14,378 bases of DNA from Candidatus Gerdarchaeota archaeon (GTDB taxonomy: Archaea > Asgardarchaeota > Heimdallarchaeia > JABLTI01), in the NCBI GenBank assembly GCA_016839405.1, contig JAEOUJ010000118.1:1-14378 (forward strand). The letters are read 5' to 3'. The number at the start of each line of letters is the position of its first letter. The first letter of the stretch is position 1. This document shows, piece by piece, positions 5,722-12,128 of this stretch. Position numbers and translations under genes: made by a program. The notes under the pieces were generated by a model, which searched no databases, was not told the origin of the DNA, and was given only the letters and a program-made list of their open reading frames with translations.

Positions 5722-6375
5722 TTAATTCAGCACTTTTTCCGGTTCTTCTGATTTTCTAGCTTTGCGTTTTCTAATAATCTTAATAATTGAAGGAAAGAGC
5801 ATTCCAGTTGTGTATATATATTCTCTGTAAACATTTCCAAAGGTTTCAATAAGCATTTTTTCTTCATTCCTAATTCTTATAATGAAAATAAATAACAAAC
5901 CAATAACCCAAATAATACCAATAAACCAATTTCCAGTAATTAAAAATACAGAAGAATGATAAATCAAAAATGCTGTATACATTGGATGTCGTATGATATT
6001 ATAAGGACCTTCTATTATTAATTTGTGATCATGAAATATTTTCAAAGTATATGAGAAATTATTATTTAAAAATAAATGTACCCAAATAAACATTCCTAAT
6101 GATAATAACCCTGTACCAAAACCAATCCAAGAAATTAATTCAGGATAATTTGTTATTTGACCCCAAGAGAACCATTGATCAAAAAAAATGTACATGAAAA
6201 ATATGATAACTGTAGATGCAATATAAATTTGTAGAAAAGTAAGTCGAATTTTACTTTCTTTTATTTCAACATCTTTGTTGTTTTTTCTTGAGAGACGACT
6301 AAAAGTTATTCTTATGATTGTAAAAAATGAATATAAGCTAACAAGTATAACTTTAAACACAATCTCTTGAGTCAT
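5722..6375 (-). CDS. Membrane methyltransferase of the ICMT/phospholipid methyltransferase fold
   Basis: Integral membrane SAM-dependent methyltransferase related to isoprenylcysteine carboxyl methyltransferase (ICMT) and PEMT. The C-terminal catalytic core has GPYNIIRHPMY at 123-133, then a membrane segment at about 140-166, then RIRNEEKMLIETFGNVYREY at 167-186. The HP motif, the paired Glu residues (171-172) and the Tyr residues bind SAM and shape the active site in this family. Membrane segments are seen at about 7-25, 46-66, 80-101 and 133-166. The length of 217 is normal for prokaryotic members. The C-terminal 20 residues are Lys/Arg/Glu-rich and cytoplasmic. The substrate may be a lipid, a small isoprenoid or a protein; prokaryotic relatives are diverse. 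The nearby small GTPase has no CaaX box, so a prenyl-protein role is not supported here. Its stop is 1 nt from that of the convergent MFS gene. Confidence 0.8.
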   Translation of the reverse strand: MTQEIVFKVILVSLYSFFTIIRITFSRLSRKNNKDVEIKESKIRLTFLQIYIASTVIIFFMYIFFDQWFSWGQITNYPELISWIGFGTGLLSLGMFIWVHLFLNNNFSYTLKIFHDHKLIIEGPYNIIRHPMYTAFLIYHSSVFLITGNWFIGIIWVIGLLFIFIIRIRNEEKMLIETFGNVYREYIYTTGMLFPSIIKIIRKRKARKSEEPEKVLN

Positions 6376-6537: not shown

Positions 6538-7494
6538 TTGGAGATGTCTGAACAAGATTATGCAATTGTAATAGAGAATTTAGTAAAGAACTACGATGAT
6601 GTAATTGCTGTTAATGATATTTCTTTGAAAATAAAAAAAGGTAAAATATTTGCTTTTCTAGGACCTAATGGAGCTGGTAAAACAACAACTGTAGAGATTT
6701 TAGAAGGAATAAGAAAAAAAACAAGTGGTAAAGCATTCGTTATGGGTTATAATATTGATAATAGAAAAGAGCTTAAAAAAATAAAAAGAGTAATCGGAAC
6801 ATTACCACAAGAATTCCATACATATGATAATCTTACAGTTAGAGAAAATTTGCGATTTTGGAGTCGCTTATTTGCAAATTCACTACCAATTGATAATTTG
6901 ATTGAATTAGTTAATTTAAAGGAAAAAGCAAAAACACGCTATAAGAATCTCTCTGGAGGTTTAAAAAGGCGTTTAGGTATTGCAATTGCTTTAGTAAATG
7001 ATCCCGAATTAGTTTTTCTAGATGAACCAACTACTGGTTTAGACCCACGAGCTCGACGTGAAACATGGGAGGTTATAGAGGATTTAAAAAATCGAGGTAA
7101 AACAATTTTCCTAACGACTCACTATATGGAGGAAGCTCAAGTTCTTGCTGATATTGTAGCTATTATTCACAAAGGGAAAATAATGGATTTAGGAACACCG
7201 GTTGAGCTTATTGACAGACATGGTGGTGATAACAAAATAATTGTTAGATGTAATTCTCAAGAAGCTCGAGAAAAAACGCATGATTTTCTTTTCATGCTTG
7301 TACCAATGGAAAATAAAGATGGTGATATTGTTGTATCTGGAAAAAAAGGTAGCATATCTAAAGTTGTTGATTTATTAGATGACAATGAAGTGCCTTATAC
7401 TGATATTGTTACACAACGACCAACCCTAGAAGATGTTTTTCTCTCTTTAACAGGTGAAACACTTGTAATTGAAAATGAGAAAAAAATAGCTTGA
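6538..7494 (+). CDS. ABC transporter ATP-binding protein, DrrA/CcmA type
   Basis: Cytoplasmic ATPase subunit of an ABC-2 exporter. All motifs are intact: Walker A GPNGAGKTTT at 42-51, Q-loop Gln91 in TLPQEF, signature LSGGLKRRLGIA at 138-149, Walker B LVFLDEP at 158-164, D-loop TGLD at 166-169 and switch His195 in TTHYMEEA. Residues from about 225 form the C-terminal domain typical of DrrA-like ATPases (DUF4162 type), ending in RPTLEDVFLSLTG at 294-306, a hallmark of this group. Start codon TTG at 6538 is chosen on the AGGTG spacing; ATG at 6544 would remove two residues. It is followed at 15 nt by two permease genes, the usual gene order for a drug-, lipid- or polymer-exporting system. The substrate is not predictable. 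Confidence 0.93.
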   Translation: MEMSEQDYAIVIENLVKNYDDVIAVNDISLKIKKGKIFAFLGPNGAGKTTTVEILEGIRKKTSGKAFVMGYNIDNRKELKKIKRVIGTLPQEFHTYDNLTVRENLRFWSRLFANSLPIDNLIELVNLKEKAKTRYKNLSGGLKRRLGIAIALVNDPELVFLDEPTTGLDPRARRETWEVIEDLKNRGKTIFLTTHYMEEAQVLADIVAIIHKGKIMDLGTPVELIDRHGGDNKIIVRCNSQEAREKTHDFLFMLVPMENKDGDIVVSGKKGSISKVVDLLDDNEVPYTDIVTQRPTLEDVFLSLTGETLVIENEKKIA

Positions 7495-7509
7495 AGGAGT
7501 AGATTATAT

Positions 7510-8718
7510 TTGAAAGATGGCACTTTATGGTCTAAAATGTTTCAGAGTTTTCGAAGGATTGGCAGCATTATTAGTGGTACTGGTTTAAGTTGGATTCGTT
7601 CTGGACCAGCACTATTTTTCACATTTATTTACCCAATTGTTATGATTTTACTATTTGGTTATATTTTTGGTGCAGCTCCATCAGAAAGTTATTACAATTT
7701 ATATTATTACAATGAAGATACTTATGATATTGACGATCAATTATTTTCCTATAATCCTGCTCAAATTCTACTTGAAAATTTAGGATTAAATAATGATTCA
7801 ATTAGTGATGAACTTAACTTGCGATTGATAAAATCAAATGCTAATTTAACAGAATTATCTCCAGTAGATTGGGCTAAAACTAATGATGTTCCATATTTAA
7901 TTATAATTCCAAGTGGTTGGTCAGCTGCTGTTAATGAATCTAAAATAAATGCTACTGCTCCAAAAGCAAATATTGAATATTATTTTGATCCATCATATAC
8001 AAGTTCATTTGAAGTTCAAAGTATTATTAGCCAAGTTCTTCAAGAAATGAATTTAAAGGAATTTGGGATTCCTGTTTTAATTGAAATTAATACAGAATCA
8101 ACTCCTGAACGTGAGGAATTAAATTATATTGATTTTTACGTGCCTGGTATAATTATGGTAACAATTTCAACTAGTGGGATGATGGGTATGGTAGCAGCTG
8201 TTACAGAAAATAGACAAACAGGTTTAATTTTCAAATTATCAGCAACTCCAATTAGAAAATGGGAATGGGCATTAGCTCAAGAACTATGGCAAGTGATAAT
8301 GAGTTTTATTGTTGCCATTTTAACTGTTTTAACTGGATGGATTGCTTTTGATTTTAATTTAAAAACCATTCATCCTTTAATGATACCAATATTAATTTTT
8401 GGTTCAATGACATTTGCTGGTTTAGCTTTAATTATAGCTCGTTTCGTTAAAAGGCCAGAAGCTGCTATGGCTGCAACAATGTCATTTGTTTTTCCACAAA
8501 TGTTTCTTTCAGGAGCGATTTTTCCAGCAGAAATATTACCAAATGCCATGCAAATAGTTGCTAAATTCTTTCCTCTATACTATGTGAGTGAATCTATGCG
8601 AGCTGTAATGTTAGAAGCGACTTTTCATAACGTATGGGTTCCATTTAGTGTGACTATTGCAATGGGTATAGTTTTTTTTACAATTGGTGTAATAATAGCC
8701 ATTTGGAGAAAAGAATAA
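7510..8718 (+). CDS. ABC-2 type permease, first subunit
   Basis: Membrane subunit of the ABC exporter. TM1 lies at about 34-54 (ALFFTFIYPIVMILLFGYIF), followed by an extracellular domain of about 150 residues. The remaining five membrane segments start at VPGIIMVTISTSGMMGM (211-227). The family-typical block FPQMFLSGAIFP lies at 328-339, and FPLYYVSESMRAVM is the conserved stretch before the last helix. This is the DrrB/YhgE-like ABC-2 arrangement with a large loop after TM1. Start TTG at 7510 is supported by AAGGAG at 7494-7499, 10 nt upstream and overlapping the end of the ATPase gene. The neighbouring permease is a paralogue, so a heterodimeric channel is likely. Confidence 0.88.
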   Translation: MKDGTLWSKMFQSFRRIGSIISGTGLSWIRSGPALFFTFIYPIVMILLFGYIFGAAPSESYYNLYYYNEDTYDIDDQLFSYNPAQILLENLGLNNDSISDELNLRLIKSNANLTELSPVDWAKTNDVPYLIIIPSGWSAAVNESKINATAPKANIEYYFDPSYTSSFEVQSIISQVLQEMNLKEFGIPVLIEINTESTPEREELNYIDFYVPGIIMVTISTSGMMGMVAAVTENRQTGLIFKLSATPIRKWEWALAQELWQVIMSFIVAILTVLTGWIAFDFNLKTIHPLMIPILIFGSMTFAGLALIIARFVKRPEAAMAATMSFVFPQMFLSGAIFPAEILPNAMQIVAKFFPLYYVSESMRAVMLEATFHNVWVPFSVTIAMGIVFFTIGVIIAIWRKE

Positions 8719-8724
8719 GGAGGT
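8719..8724 (+). promoter_or_regulatory. Strong Shine-Dalgarno site fixing a GTG start
   Basis: GGAGGT lies 6 nt before GTG 8731-8733, immediately after the stop of the first permease gene. It is the best ribosome-binding site in the operon and makes the GTG start convincing. Confidence 0.75.
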
Positions 8725-8730
8725 AAAAAA

Positions 8731-9960
8731 GTGCCCAATGAAAACCATTTAGACTCAACAAAAAAACAACCAAGAAAAGCAATTTTGGTCATTAAACGAT
8801 TAGGTGCATATATTTCTGCAGCATTAATAGATTTCAAACGATCACCATTAACAATATTTTTTACTATTGCTTATCCAATTATCTTAATTCTTTTATTTGG
8901 AGCTATATTTTCAGGTAATGGTGCCACATCTTCAACATATACTATGTATTATCAAAGTGGGGGTGATGATGGCTTTTTTATTAATTCAACCTATACTTTA
9001 AATTACACTGATCAAATAATCGTAACATTTCAAAATATGACACGCACTGATAATATTACTAAATTATTTGATTTAAGGCCTATTCCTGATGATATTATTA
9101 ATCCTGGAACTTTTTTGGAAGAAGAAGAAGGTTATATTGCATTAATTATTCCAGAAAATTTTACACAAGAAGTTATATTTAATCCTCCAATGAATTTAAC
9201 TATTATTCTAGATAGAAATTCTAATTCAGCCAATATAGCCTTGAGTATTGTTAATAGTGTTATTTATCAATATAATTTAGGAATAGCAGGTTATAATGAA
9301 ACAAAAATTGGTATGGAATCATTTGACATCTATTTAGAAGAAGAAATTGAATATTTTGAATTTTTAATTCCAGGGATTATTGGTGTAGCAATTTTGAATA
9401 ATGGAGTTATTGGAACAATAAATCGATATTCATATTTCGAAAGAAAAGGATTCTTTAGAAAACTCTCATCATCACCAATGAGTAAGGCTGATGTTGTTGT
9501 TGGTGAAGCATCTTGGATATTTTTACAAGGATTAATTTCAATTATCGCTATATTGTTAATTGGTTGGTTAGTTTTTAAAATACCTTCTGGTGATTATAAA
9601 TGGATTTATGAAGTTCTAGATTGGAAAGTGTTACCTATAGCTATATCAGCTGTTCTCAATTTTACAGGATTGGGTATGATAGGAGCTCGATTAGTAAAAA
9701 ATCCTGATGCATCTACAGCTGTCGGTAATTTTATTACATTTCCAATGATGTTTCTAAGTGGTGCTTTTTTTGAAGTTGCTCATATACCTGTTATAAATGT
9801 AATTTCTAAAATGCTACCTTTAACTTATATTAATGAAGCACTTCGAGCATCAATGATAACTCCAAATATACCAATTGCTTGGCTAAATATTGGTATAAGT
9901 TTTGCTTTTGGAGTTGTTCTTTTCACTATAGGTATATTAGTAACTAAAATAACTGAATAA
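8731..9960 (+). CDS. ABC-2 type permease, second subunit
   Basis: Second membrane subunit of the exporter, paralogous to the first. TM1 is at about 38-58 (LTIFFTIAYPIILILLFGAIF). A long extracellular domain with several Asn-x-Ser/Thr sites runs to about 205. Helices begin at FLIPGIIGVAILNNGVIG (211-228), and FPMMFLSGAFF at 337-347 aligns with FPQMFLSGAIF of the partner. LPLTYINEALRASM is the conserved stretch near the C-terminus. Start GTG at 8731 has an excellent GGAGGT site. The 12-nt gap from the first permease indicates co-translation. Two distinct permeases for one ATPase suggest an asymmetric exporter with a homodimeric ATPase. A hairpin follows the stop within 20 nt, ending the operon. 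Confidence 0.88.
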   Translation: MPNENHLDSTKKQPRKAILVIKRLGAYISAALIDFKRSPLTIFFTIAYPIILILLFGAIFSGNGATSSTYTMYYQSGGDDGFFINSTYTLNYTDQIIVTFQNMTRTDNITKLFDLRPIPDDIINPGTFLEEEEGYIALIIPENFTQEVIFNPPMNLTIILDRNSNSANIALSIVNSVIYQYNLGIAGYNETKIGMESFDIYLEEEIEYFEFLIPGIIGVAILNNGVIGTINRYSYFERKGFFRKLSSSPMSKADVVVGEASWIFLQGLISIIAILLIGWLVFKIPSGDYKWIYEVLDWKVLPIAISAVLNFTGLGMIGARLVKNPDASTAVGNFITFPMMFLSGAFFEVAHIPVINVISKMLPLTYINEALRASMITPNIPIAWLNIGISFAFGVVLFTIGILVTKITE

Positions 9961-9976
9961 TAATAATGAAAAGTTT

Positions 9977-10018
9977 AGAGAAATAGCAAGTTAAAATTTC
10001 AGCTGTTTCTCTCTTTAT
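9977..10018 (+). terminator. Hairpin plus T-rich tail ending the ABC operon
   Basis: Arms AGAGAAATAGC (9977-9987) and GCTGTTTCTCT (10002-10012) form an 11-bp stem with one G-U pair around a 14-nt loop, followed by CTTTATT. It lies 17 nt after the last permease stop. This resembles an intrinsic terminator, although archaeal termination relies mainly on the T-rich tract. Downstream, 10013-10110 holds only short AT-rich inverted repeats such as AATTTTC/GAAAATT at 10059-10076. Confidence 0.6.
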
Positions 10019-10113
10019 TGAAGTGAACGTTTAATTAGCTGATGGATTTTTCTAGAAAAATTTTCCTTAGAAAATTAATTTTTGGCATTTTAGAATTGCC
10101 TAAAGAATAACTG

Positions 10114-10169
10114 CTTTAAATAACTAAGTCAAGAATAATGAAAGAAATTTTATCGCAAAATTAAAGGAG
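10114..10169 (+). promoter_or_regulatory. Promoter and ribosome-binding site of the longin/GTPase/7TM operon
   Basis: CTTTAAATAAC at 10114-10124 is a TATA-box candidate, and the identical 11-mer occurs at 12210-12220. Transcription would begin near 10145, leaving a leader of roughly 35 nt with AAGGAG at 10164-10169, 9 nt before the ATG at 10179. Confidence 0.55.
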
Positions 10170-10178
10170 AATTATCAG

Positions 10179-10667
10179 ATGAAACCCGTATCATTATGCT
10201 TGGTCCAAATGGGTGAAAAAGGTCTTGAATTAGTAAAAGCACATCCTAACGTTTTGCCTAAAGAAATTCTTAGTGAGCTAACTTACAAATCAATGCCTAT
10301 GGGAGCAAAACCTGGAGAATTCTCATCAGCAGTTATTGGCGATTTATTTTATTCAAGTTATATCTTTTCCATCCCCAGAGAAGATAATCGAGATAATATA
10401 GCTGCAATTATTGCAGTTTATAATAATATGAAATACAATATTGAAGGTATACGTAAAGTATTTTCATTTATTGTTAAAGAGTTAGAAACTAAATCACTAT
10501 TAAAAACAGACATAGTTGAAGAAATTCTTCCAAATCTCTACAAAGGATTTGATAGTGGACACATTAAAATAAAAATCAGTTCGATTGCCACTATAGATAT
10601 TGATTTTGCAGAAGAGCCGGAAGAAAAAGATATCACTAATGATCTAGAAGATGATCTTTGGAGATAA
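10179..10667 (+). CDS. Longin-like domain protein (GTPase partner candidate)
   Basis: Small cytoplasmic protein of 162 residues with no membrane segment and no obvious catalytic motif. Predicted secondary structure follows the longin order of two strands, helix, three strands and two helices: strands at about 4-10 and 14-20, helix 27-38, strands 48-53, 58-65 (SSYIFSIPRE) and 73-81 (NIAAIIAVY), helices 88-104 and 112-121. The tail from 143 is acidic (EEPEEKD...DLEDDLW). Longin and the related roadblock folds are frequent partners or regulators of small GTPases in eukaryotes and Asgard archaea. Here the next gene, 22 nt downstream, is a small GTPase. ATG start with AAGGAG at 9 nt. The fold is my reading of the pattern rather than a clear family match; a roadblock-like or unrelated alpha/beta fold is possible. 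Confidence 0.55.
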   Translation: MKPVSLCLVQMGEKGLELVKAHPNVLPKEILSELTYKSMPMGAKPGEFSSAVIGDLFYSSYIFSIPREDNRDNIAAIIAVYNNMKYNIEGIRKVFSFIVKELETKSLLKTDIVEEILPNLYKGFDSGHIKIKISSIATIDIDFAEEPEEKDITNDLEDDLWR

Positions 10668-10673
10668 TTAAAA

Positions 10674-10679
10674 AAGGAG
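10674..10679 (+). promoter_or_regulatory. Ribosome-binding site supporting a TTG start for the GTPase
   Basis: AAGGAG lies 10 nt before TTG 10690-10692. No ATG occurs in frame before the P-loop, so the TTG start is needed to give a complete G domain. Confidence 0.65.
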
Positions 10680-10689
10680 ACAAATTACC

Positions 10690-11226
10690 TTGGCATTTCT
10701 ATTAAAACTATTTAAACGTAAATTAAAAGAAGTAGATATAACTATTTGCGGATTAGCTAATGCAGGTAAAACTACTATTATAAAATACTTAGAAACTGGT
10801 AGATTTGTCGATACTCAACCGACTATGGGAATCAATCGTGGAGAAACAATTCAAGTTGATAAACTTGAAATAAATATATTTGATTTGGGTGGTCAAGACG
10901 ATTTTCAAGTTCTTTGGCCAGAGGTTAACGAGAAGTCAGATGGAGTAGTATTTGTAGTTGATAAATCAGATGTTATGAATTTTGGGAGTGCAAAAGAAGC
11001 ATTTCATAATATAATTGAATCTCAAATTCATAAAGATGTCACAGTTTTGGTATTATTACATAAAGCAGATTTACCTGATGGTATGGAAAGGAATCAATTC
11101 ATCAAGGAATTTGATTTGCTAGATATACCTTACAAATGGGCTTGTTATGAAACATCAGCGAAAACAGGTTCGAATATCTTTGATAGCTTTCGTTGGTTTT
11201 TTGAGCAATTAAAAGAGGAGAATTAA
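10690..11226 (+). CDS. Small GTPase, Arf/Rag-like
   Basis: Complete single-domain Ras-superfamily GTPase of 178 residues. G1 is GLANAGKT at 21-28 (Arf style, compare GLDAAGKT). G2 Thr45 lies in PTMGIN. G3 is DLGGQDDF at 65-72 with Gln69 present. G4 is HKAD at 124-127 in place of NKxD. G5 is TSAK at 155-158. The GGQ switch II is shared by Arf, SR-beta and Rag/Gtr families, and HKxD at G4 is characteristic of eukaryotic Rag/Gtr GTPases. The N-terminus FLLKLFKRKLKEV (3-15) is hydrophobic/basic and could form an Arf-like amphipathic membrane helix, but there is no Gly2 for myristoylation and no C-terminal Cys for prenylation. Start TTG with AAGGAG at 10 nt. The 7TM gene follows after 3 nt. Likely a membrane-associated molecular switch; effector unknown. 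Confidence 0.93.
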   Translation: MAFLLKLFKRKLKEVDITICGLANAGKTTIIKYLETGRFVDTQPTMGINRGETIQVDKLEINIFDLGGQDDFQVLWPEVNEKSDGVVFVVDKSDVMNFGSAKEAFHNIIESQIHKDVTVLVLLHKADLPDGMERNQFIKEFDLLDIPYKWACYETSAKTGSNIFDSFRWFFEQLKEEN

Positions 11227-11229
11227 AGA

Positions 11230-12090
11230 ATGGCACTAGCAGCAGATCTTTTTTATATAATCTTTTCATGGATATCTCTAACAGTAAACATAGCACTTTT
11301 AGTATTTCTCTTTAATAATTTTATTAAAAAGAAAACGACTGGAACTTTAATCCTTTTCTCTTCTTATTTTGTTATAGCTTTAGGGGCAACACTTGGAGCA
11401 GTTGTTTACACTTTAGAATTTTTAAGCACCCCACTAGTAACTATTGGAGTATTACAATCATTATCAACAATTACTCCTCAAATTGGTCTTATTTTGATCT
11501 ATATTTTTTCAACAAGACATATATTAAGAGATAATGAGGTGGCTAAAACATTAACAACATCCTTATTTTCAGCACTTTTAGGATTCATTTTGACAATGTA
11601 TCTTTTAGCAGTCTACGGTCTTACAGAACAATTCCCAGGATTTATTTTACCTGAAGATGAAAGTGCAAAGTGGTTTCAATTAATTAGAACAAACATATCT
11701 GGTACAGATTTATATAATTTATCAATTTCATTCTTAGCTCCATTTATTACTATTGTACAAATTTATTTGAACCTTAGAATTATCATCAAATCATTTATTT
11801 TATCAAGGAGAACGGATAAAATAATTCGAAAACGAGGATTACAGATGATAGGTTGGGGTTTGGTTACTTACCTTTTAGGTGGATTAGTTATCTCTTTAGA
11901 AATTGGAGTTCCTTGGCCAGATGGTAGCCATATACCAACAATTTTCTGGACCCTTAGAAAATTGATATTTCTAGTTTCCTATTTCATTCTATATCTAGGT
12001 TGGATTATGCCAGATTGGTTCCGAAGGCGCATTAGAGGTAAAACTTGGTTTGAAATGCGTTATAAGGAAGTTAGTAAATTTACTCAATAG
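11230..12090 (+). CDS. Seven-TM integral membrane protein co-encoded with a small GTPase
   Basis: I do not recognise the family. Seven hydrophobic segments are visible at about 7-29, 39-62, 70-93, 109-130, 164-188, 204-224 and 241-261. Positive charge sits in the loops after TM1 (KKK at 33-35), TM3 (RHILRDNEVAK) and TM5 (SRRTDKIIRKR) and in the C-terminal tail (RRRIRGK). The loops after TM2, TM4 and TM6 are acidic or neutral. This predicts N-out/C-in topology. The longest outside loop (131-163) carries EDES and a few polar residues. No soluble catalytic domain is attached. The ATG has GAGGAG 9 nt upstream, inside the end of the GTPase gene, and the gap is 3 nt, so the two are translationally linked. 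It could be a sensor, a receptor-like anchor for the GTPase, or a transporter; sequence alone does not decide. Confidence 0.75.
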   Translation: MALAADLFYIIFSWISLTVNIALLVFLFNNFIKKKTTGTLILFSSYFVIALGATLGAVVYTLEFLSTPLVTIGVLQSLSTITPQIGLILIYIFSTRHILRDNEVAKTLTTSLFSALLGFILTMYLLAVYGLTEQFPGFILPEDESAKWFQLIRTNISGTDLYNLSISFLAPFITIVQIYLNLRIIIKSFILSRRTDKIIRKRGLQMIGWGLVTYLLGGLVISLEIGVPWPDGSHIPTIFWTLRKLIFLVSYFILYLGWIMPDWFRRRIRGKTWFEMRYKEVSKFTQ

Positions 12091-12092
12091 AG

Positions 12093-12128
12093 GAAAGAAT
12101 TCTTATATGAATTTCTTTCTTTTTTTTT
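12093..12128 (+). terminator. Strong hairpin plus T9 tract ending the longin/GTPase/7TM operon
   Basis: Arms GAAAGAATTC (12093-12102) and GAATTTCTTTC (12109-12119) pair with a single bulge around a 6-nt loop. They are followed directly by nine T residues at 12120-12128 and more T-rich sequence to about 12160. It starts 2 nt after the stop codon, as a bacterial-style intrinsic terminator would. Confidence 0.75.

Follow-up and report, generated by a model that had tools for sequence, protein, structure and literature searches.

The window analysed here, i.e. a whole stretch of 14,378 nucleotides (nt) from Candidatus Gerdarchaeota archaeon (contig JAEOUJ010000118.1 of assembly GCA_016839405.1), contains a unit of three genes on the forward strand, encoding a longin-fold protein (positions 10179–10667, 162 amino acids, ATG start), an Arf-family small GTPase (10690–11226, 178 amino acids, TTG start), and a protein with seven transmembrane (7TM) helices (11230–12090, 286 amino acids, ATG start). 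The spacing is 22 nt between the longin and GTPase genes and 3 nt between the GTPase and 7TM genes. The same order was found 21 times in total, in 10 Asgard genomes and the window, and the three genes travel as one unit, as the original prediction had proposed. We estimate a probability of approximately one half that this unit (hereafter, the cassette) encodes a membrane-bound small-GTPase switch equipped with its own longin GTPase-activating protein (GAP) and with a 7TM protein serving as receptor or anchor.

Searches with the longin and 7TM proteins matched 78 (including that of the window itself) and 49 proteins, respectively. The organism names among the longin matches were the Asgard group, Heimdallarchaeota, Thorarchaeota and, once, Bathyarchaeia, and three pairs of longin and 7TM locus tags were two apart (GNW80_02645/_02655, FK733_12305/_12315, and ACFFDW_12500/_12510), which hinted at synteny. 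A pattern-limited longin scan of named genomes yielded 12 confirmed loci in four bins, and the 7TM gene was located immediately 3' of the longin gene at all 12; the GTPase gene between them was full at 10 loci, broken at one (L011; loci and genomes are cited by our L and G numbers), and lacking at one (L012). The neighbourhood suspected from the window alone thus holds in other Asgard genomes. Models of the longin and 7TM proteins matched 41 and 55 of the 227 genomes of the same phylum, respectively, many of them weakly. For counts of gene context, loci were drawn from the Asgard-phylum genomes and the four named bins, giving 73 distinct longin-family reading frames, including that of the window. 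The longin-GTPase-7TM order was found for 21 of the 73 frames; 24 are located beside a longer Arf-like GTPase of approximately 300 amino acids (a count that includes two pieces of a single gene at L126), 8 are accompanied by a 7TM gene without a GTPase (the 7TM gene of L043 is broken), and 20 are 'orphans', i.e. frames with no same-strand partner match within 3 kilobases (kb) downstream or 600 nt upstream. Contig ends account for the position of some orphans (L045 and L120), and at L120, a GTPase-like gene also precedes the longin gene at a distance of 1.4 kb. The three-gene units are distributed to the window and genomes G001–G004, G016, G018, G022, G026, G029, and G060, with up to five units per genome (G002 and G004), and two of the 21 are damaged (L011 in the GTPase gene and L030 in both the longin and GTPase genes). 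In the 20 units with a GTPase of >150 amino acids, including that of the window, the inter-gene distances range from −98 to +93 nt, although overlaps may be overstated because starts were chosen mechanically. The gene order and its recurrence go beyond chance.

The three proteins also co-vary. In a comparison of pairwise distances among the 20 copies with a GTPase of >150 amino acids, the correlation coefficients were 0.78 (longin and GTPase), 0.76 (longin and 7TM), and 0.88 (GTPase and 7TM), and none of 2000 permutations reached any of the three. When partners were shuffled inside genomes, the observed values were reached in 12, 0, and 0 of 2000 shuffles, respectively, and the corresponding coefficients within genomes (19 pairs) were 0.23, 0.47, and 0.67. 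Matches of at least 150 bits to the window GTPase were found at 23 places in the 10 genomes, of which 20 lie inside units and 3 outside, as judged by coordinates. The stray cassette-type GTPases are G001:C165, G002:C13, and G060:C66, the last of which has a stop. Each of these genomes also holds a longin-7TM pair without a GTPase (the 7TM gene of the pair in G060 is broken); G003 contains two such pairs and no stray GTPase, and neither was seen in the other six genomes. The stray GTPases and GTPase-less pairs fit, if weakly, with a partner in trans.

A second build, in which a diverged longin is combined with the longer Arf-like GTPase, was identified in 19 other Asgard genomes. Its longin belongs to the same family as the cassette longin (hhalign probability 99.1, E = 9e-19). 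Beside the 24 second-build frames, two genes for multi-TM proteins were found in 18 cases, one in 3, and none in 3, some of these loci being at contig ends, and the genes are arranged as longin-TM-TM-GTPase or GTPase-longin-TM-TM. A length of 210–237 amino acids and 5–7 predicted TM segments are typical of the TM proteins, and a Pfam search of four of them gave no match. Kinship of the cassette 7TM protein with the two multi-TM proteins of the second build was sought and not found (hhalign probabilities 0.9 and 0.2). As for the C-terminal domain of the longer GTPases, no solved relative was found among the 60 matches listed, which match the G domain. Because this second build is present, the combination of a longin, an Arf-type GTPase, and a membrane protein represents a recurrent partnership rather than a single frozen neighbourhood. 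The second build is found at L093, L096–L098, L100–L104, and other loci and is duplicated in L097 and L104; many of its longins end in KGSF(F/L/I) or (A/K)GMF.

The AlphaFold2 (AF2) model of the 162-amino acid protein, with a predicted local distance difference test score (pLDDT) of 83.5 and residues 146–162 below 50, shows the topology β-β-α-β-β-β-α-α, i.e. the longin order plus a hairpin, and matches solved longins. Its closest fold matches in PDB are GATOR1/SEA chains, the identified ones being tied with a Loki longin, and adaptor and SNARE longin chains are also among the matches. Superposition on 9o5a_H paired 145 residues of model positions 1–146 with residues 5–162 of the chain. The longin-like character proposed for this protein was thus supported by model topology and structure search, and the proposed likeness to GATOR1 stands as the nearest eukaryotic likeness in fold but does not extend to sequence profiles. 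Comparison by hhalign with 62 NPRL2-family sequences, a set that is almost all vertebrate and thus gives a narrow profile, yielded probabilities of 0.1 for alignment A1 of the cassette longin family and 1.1 for the second-build longins. The NPR2 family was absent from the Pfam matches of 55 longin members at E ≤ 0.1, and a PDB sequence profile search with A1 returned nothing credible. Pfam matches to DHHA2, KGK, and others were rejected, being scattered over few members, with DHHA2 below its cut-off. The reading frame stops at residue 162 and thus lacks the later domains of NPRL2; its acidic, low-confidence C-terminus (10617–10664) ends in DDLWR, and in this D-D-L-W-like tail motif, W is located within the last four residues in 55 of 55 rows of A1.

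The longin protein is a candidate GAP for its GTPase, and the candidate arginine finger is Arg71 (R71; codon at 10389–10391, forward strand), which is located in the β4-β5 loop just before strand 5. Conservation of R71 reaches at least 90% among the 55 rows of A1. When the two builds are taken together, the arginine is present in 42/42 intact GTPase-linked longins, 8/8 longins linked to a 7TM gene only, and 10/20 orphans (linked versus orphan, P = 1.7e-6), where the two L126 fragments and the damaged L030 copy were omitted from the linked set (45 to 42). Two prolines, P23 and P40, are conserved nearly everywhere. According to the available parts of the respective papers, Arg78 on the longin loop of NPRL2 is the arginine finger of GATOR1 (PMC8534245), and Arg147 on the longin domain of SMCR8 is the arginine finger toward ARF1 (PMC8213707). 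When the 42 longins were aligned by MAFFT with 55 NPRL2-family sequences (the 62 without seven odd isoforms), R71 was paired with Arg78 in five of five modes. The 9o5a_H pairing places R71 at about residues 74–88, if the chain and its numbering are those of NPRL2, and Arg78 is the only arginine within residues 74–88 of NPRL2. By the superposition and the alignment of the full set, R71 would lie in the probable equivalent of the NPRL2 Arg78 loop.

Three observations weigh against a longin GAP acting through R71. F63 (42/42 linked versus 6/20 orphans) and G123 (40/42 versus 1/20) contrast as strongly as R71, so that the R71 pattern is support rather than proof. With the 7TM-linked longins only, MAFFT paired R71 with Arg78 in none of five modes, and the registers contradict the superposition. 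Finally, the agreement of longin and GTPase within genomes is weak (r = 0.23, 19 pairs). It is conceivable, though somewhat unlikely, that the longin is instead a guanine nucleotide exchange factor or merely gives the GTPase a passive platform, in the manner of Mon1-Ccz1 or TRAPP, with regulation by the 7TM protein or a third factor.

The second protein is assigned to the Arf family of Pfam (1.6e-36, 125.8 bits), and its best solved sequence relatives are ARF1-type. Gtr1_RagA (36.2 bits against a cut-off of 22) and SRPRB (30.3 bits) were also matched above their cut-offs, and the G-alpha family (30.2 bits) below its cut-off. The motifs GLANAGKT, PTMG, DLGGQ, HKAD, and SAK are present, and the 178 residues comprise a G domain only, without the Rag-type C-terminal domain of roadblock type. 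Of the original assignment to an Arf/Rag-like GTPase, the Arf part is therefore well founded in score and motifs, whereas the likeness to Rag is weak. HKAD (the G4 motif) was dropped as a Rag marker, because N or H occurs across the units and is not diagnostic. The linked GTPases, with the exception of truncated rows, retain the P-loop, the switch I PTxG (ATLG in L107), GQ, and N/HKxD; the set of 48 'linked GTPases' includes four that are not GTPases, namely the end genes of L067, L068, L070, and L071, whose matches to the longer-GTPase profile are confined to its C-terminal part. In some genomes, the 7TM gene is followed at approximately 0.3–1 kb by an extra gene (L068:2927-3465, with relatives in L067, L069, L070, and L071). 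The product of L068:2927-3465 matches Intu_longin_1 weakly (E = 0.0073, below the cut-off) as well as the C-terminal domain of the approximately 300-amino acid GTPases and is perhaps a second longin.

The N-terminus is short and basic in the window GTPase and most linked GTPases, and an amphipathic membrane helix at this position is a candidate only. Asgard ArfRs carry an N-terminal amphipathic helix and are membrane-localized when GTP-bound, as described in the available part of a review (PMC12554972). Arf-family membership and the basic N-terminus would also suit a membrane-deformation or trafficking module, in which vesicles would be formed or targeted by the GTPase, with the 7TM protein as the mark of the site or cargo and the longin in a coat-like or regulatory role. 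The adaptor and SNARE longin chains among the fold matches and the GTPase operon ArvABC, which drives vesicle formation in Haloferax (available text of PMC10927574), point in the same direction; however, the domains of ArvB and ArvC (DUF2073 and DUF2072) were not matched by the three proteins, and several diverged copies per genome suit sensing better than one house-keeping machine. Such a module is unlikely on balance, but it and the proposed GAP-controlled switch are not mutually exclusive.

The AF2 model of the third protein (pLDDT 88.9) contains seven TM helices, a β-hairpin in the TM4-TM5 loop, and two short helices after TM7. The protein is likely oriented with its N-terminus outside and C-terminus inside, with a mean of 19.4 K+R in the four inside segments versus 1.1 in the four outside segments (45 rows), and the predicted seven-TM nature of the protein is thus upheld by both the modelled helices and the positive-inside count. 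All 50 PDB fold matches listed are G protein-coupled receptors (GPCRs), with weak E-values. Against viral structures (best E = 0.023), several of the best matches were viral GPCRs, but similar scores were reached by membrane proteins of phages and giant viruses and by a histidine kinase from a phage. The 7tm families of Pfam gave no match to the protein, and a GPCR found as the best PDB sequence match of profile A2 (E = 0.049) was taken as chance. The likeness of the model to GPCRs may merely reflect a common helical arrangement. Weak relatives of the 7TM protein, mostly matching its second half, were found in other Asgard genomes at 15 loci (L136–L150); the GTPase profile was matched at 5 of these and the C-terminal domain of the longer GTPases at 2 more, with no background computed for these counts. 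A role of the 7TM protein as transporter or membrane enzyme, of which the GTPase-longin pair would control only the amount or place, is improbable: its sole NCBIfam match is to MAB_1171c, a 'putative transporter', and is weak (E = 0.0054, 15.8 bits against a cut-off of 100), and the invariant arginines R183 (TM5) and R243 (TM7) inside membrane helices could line a pore or active site but equally a ligand pocket, whereas most of the invariant residues cluster in or close to the loops and tail on the cytoplasmic side and the listed PDB fold matches are GPCRs throughout.

For the membrane-bound switch with its own longin GAP, we infer that the three proteins form a complex. In the proposed mechanism, the Arf-family GTPase would cycle between the GDP- and GTP-bound states, seated on the membrane by its basic N-terminal helix. 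The longin, perhaps dimeric as are other longin GAPs, would insert Arg71 into the active site of the GTPase and thereby set the off-rate. The 7TM protein, with its N-terminus outside and its strongly basic inner face, would keep the GTPase-longin pair at the membrane and link it to an outside or lipid signal. Duplication to up to five copies per genome would provide parallel channels, each with its own inputs.

Each gene of the cassette is preceded by a Shine-Dalgarno-like run read from the sequence (AAAGGAG at 10163–10169, AAGGAG at 10674–10679, and GAGGAG at 11215–11220 for the longin, GTPase, and 7TM genes, respectively, all on the forward strand), in line with the individual ribosome-binding sites named in the original prediction, the coordinates and gaps of which are exact. 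A TATA-like element, TTTAAATA (10115–10122, forward strand), was the sole match of the patterns tried in 9951–10180 and is a candidate promoter element, its end lying 57 nt from the first start codon. A hairpin running into nine T residues (12089–12128, forward strand; −11.5 kcal/mol, z = −2.29; T run at 12120–12128) is located behind the last gene and is a probable terminator. Candidates for both elements that had been said to delimit the unit are present; support for the hairpin is modest, as 4 of 200 shuffles were equally good. A transfer RNA scan of the window found none. An ABC (ATP-binding cassette) exporter consisting of an ATPase and two ABC-2 permeases (6538–9960) lies directly upstream of the unit. 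Much of the surrounding window is shared by L001–L003, and the exporter is collinear with the unit in L001 and L003 only, not in L002; in L004–L012, the remaining window gives partial matches only (30–35% identity), to the ABC ATPase, weakly, and to TrmO. The fourth gene upstream of the unit encodes a membrane methyltransferase of the ICMT/PEMT type (5722–6375, reverse strand), and the end of the window GTPase has no CaaX-like motif.

Among known systems, GATOR1 (NPRL2/NPRL3/DEPDC5), which acts on Rag GTPases, FLCN-FNIP, and C9orf72-SMCR8 share with the cassette the longin fold and perhaps an arginine in the probable equivalent loop. Since SMCR8 acts on ARF1 (available part of PMC8213707), there is a precedent for a longin GAP with a target of the Arf type. 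Unlike GATOR1, the cassette has a longin of a single 162-amino acid domain with no sequence-profile match, a single-domain GTPase of the Arf type, and a co-encoded 7TM protein. The actinobacterial conservons (Cvn, 'actinobacterial G protein systems') are likewise multi-copy operons, in which a small GTPase is joined by a roadblock protein as partner and by a sensor in the membrane, as far as described in the accessible text of PMC4316618 and PMC13343842; however, they contain a histidine kinase in place of the 7TM protein, an MglA-type GTPase, an MglB roadblock, and an extra CvnC, and no kinase or roadblock family was matched by the three cassette proteins. With these defining parts missing, the cassette is a member of neither the GATOR1/C9orf72-type GAP systems nor the conservons. 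The simplest account is the membrane-bound switch proposed above, which would work like GATOR1/C9orf72-type GAP control with a gene logic like that of conservons. The vesiculating operon ArvABC also comprises three archaeal genes around a small GTPase, but its partners are DUF2073 and DUF2072, a longin and a 7TM protein are not named in the available part of PMC10927574, and it is a different operon. The Asgard ArfRs resemble the cassette GTPase as Asgard Arf-family members and may also do so in their N-terminal amphipathic helix, but no such operon is described in the available part of the review (PMC12554972). Eukaryotic GPCR-G protein systems resemble the cassette in the probable N-out 7TM protein, the listed fold matches (all GPCRs), and the pairing with an Arf-family GTPase; they differ in that the cassette has no 7tm Pfam match, no beta/gamma in the unit, and a small GTPase rather than G-alpha.

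In strain MK-D1, small-GTPase genes do not as a rule share an operon with a gene for a roadblock, longin, or TRAPPC3 protein, according to the available part of a structural survey (PMC10933270), which makes a recurrent longin-GTPase operon unusual. No description of a longin-GTPase-7TM unit was found in the literature searched, in part by searches not aimed at this unit, the coverage of which leaves out most subscription papers and preprints. Regulators of Asgard GTPases are hard to match to their GTPases, and the gene order identified here names both the pair and a membrane partner. The first build names them 21 times and the second about as often, and an archaeal longin GAP thereby becomes directly testable. 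The cassette may be a prokaryotic module for G-protein signalling or trafficking. More speculatively, Asgard archaea may carry an expanded set of receptor-coupled G-protein cassettes, in which a GPCR-shaped 7TM protein would switch an Arf-family GTPase and the dedicated longin GAP of the latter would act through an arginine finger, a chemistry that reappears in GATOR1, FLCN, and C9orf72-SMCR8; we regard this scenario as doubtful. The findings bear on the origin of GATOR1/Rag-type and receptor-coupled GTPase control in eukaryotes: if the receptor-coupled scenario is true, longin GAPs would have originated as operons in archaea related to eukaryotes, as perhaps would the coupling between 7TM receptors and GTPases of the Arf/G-alpha type.
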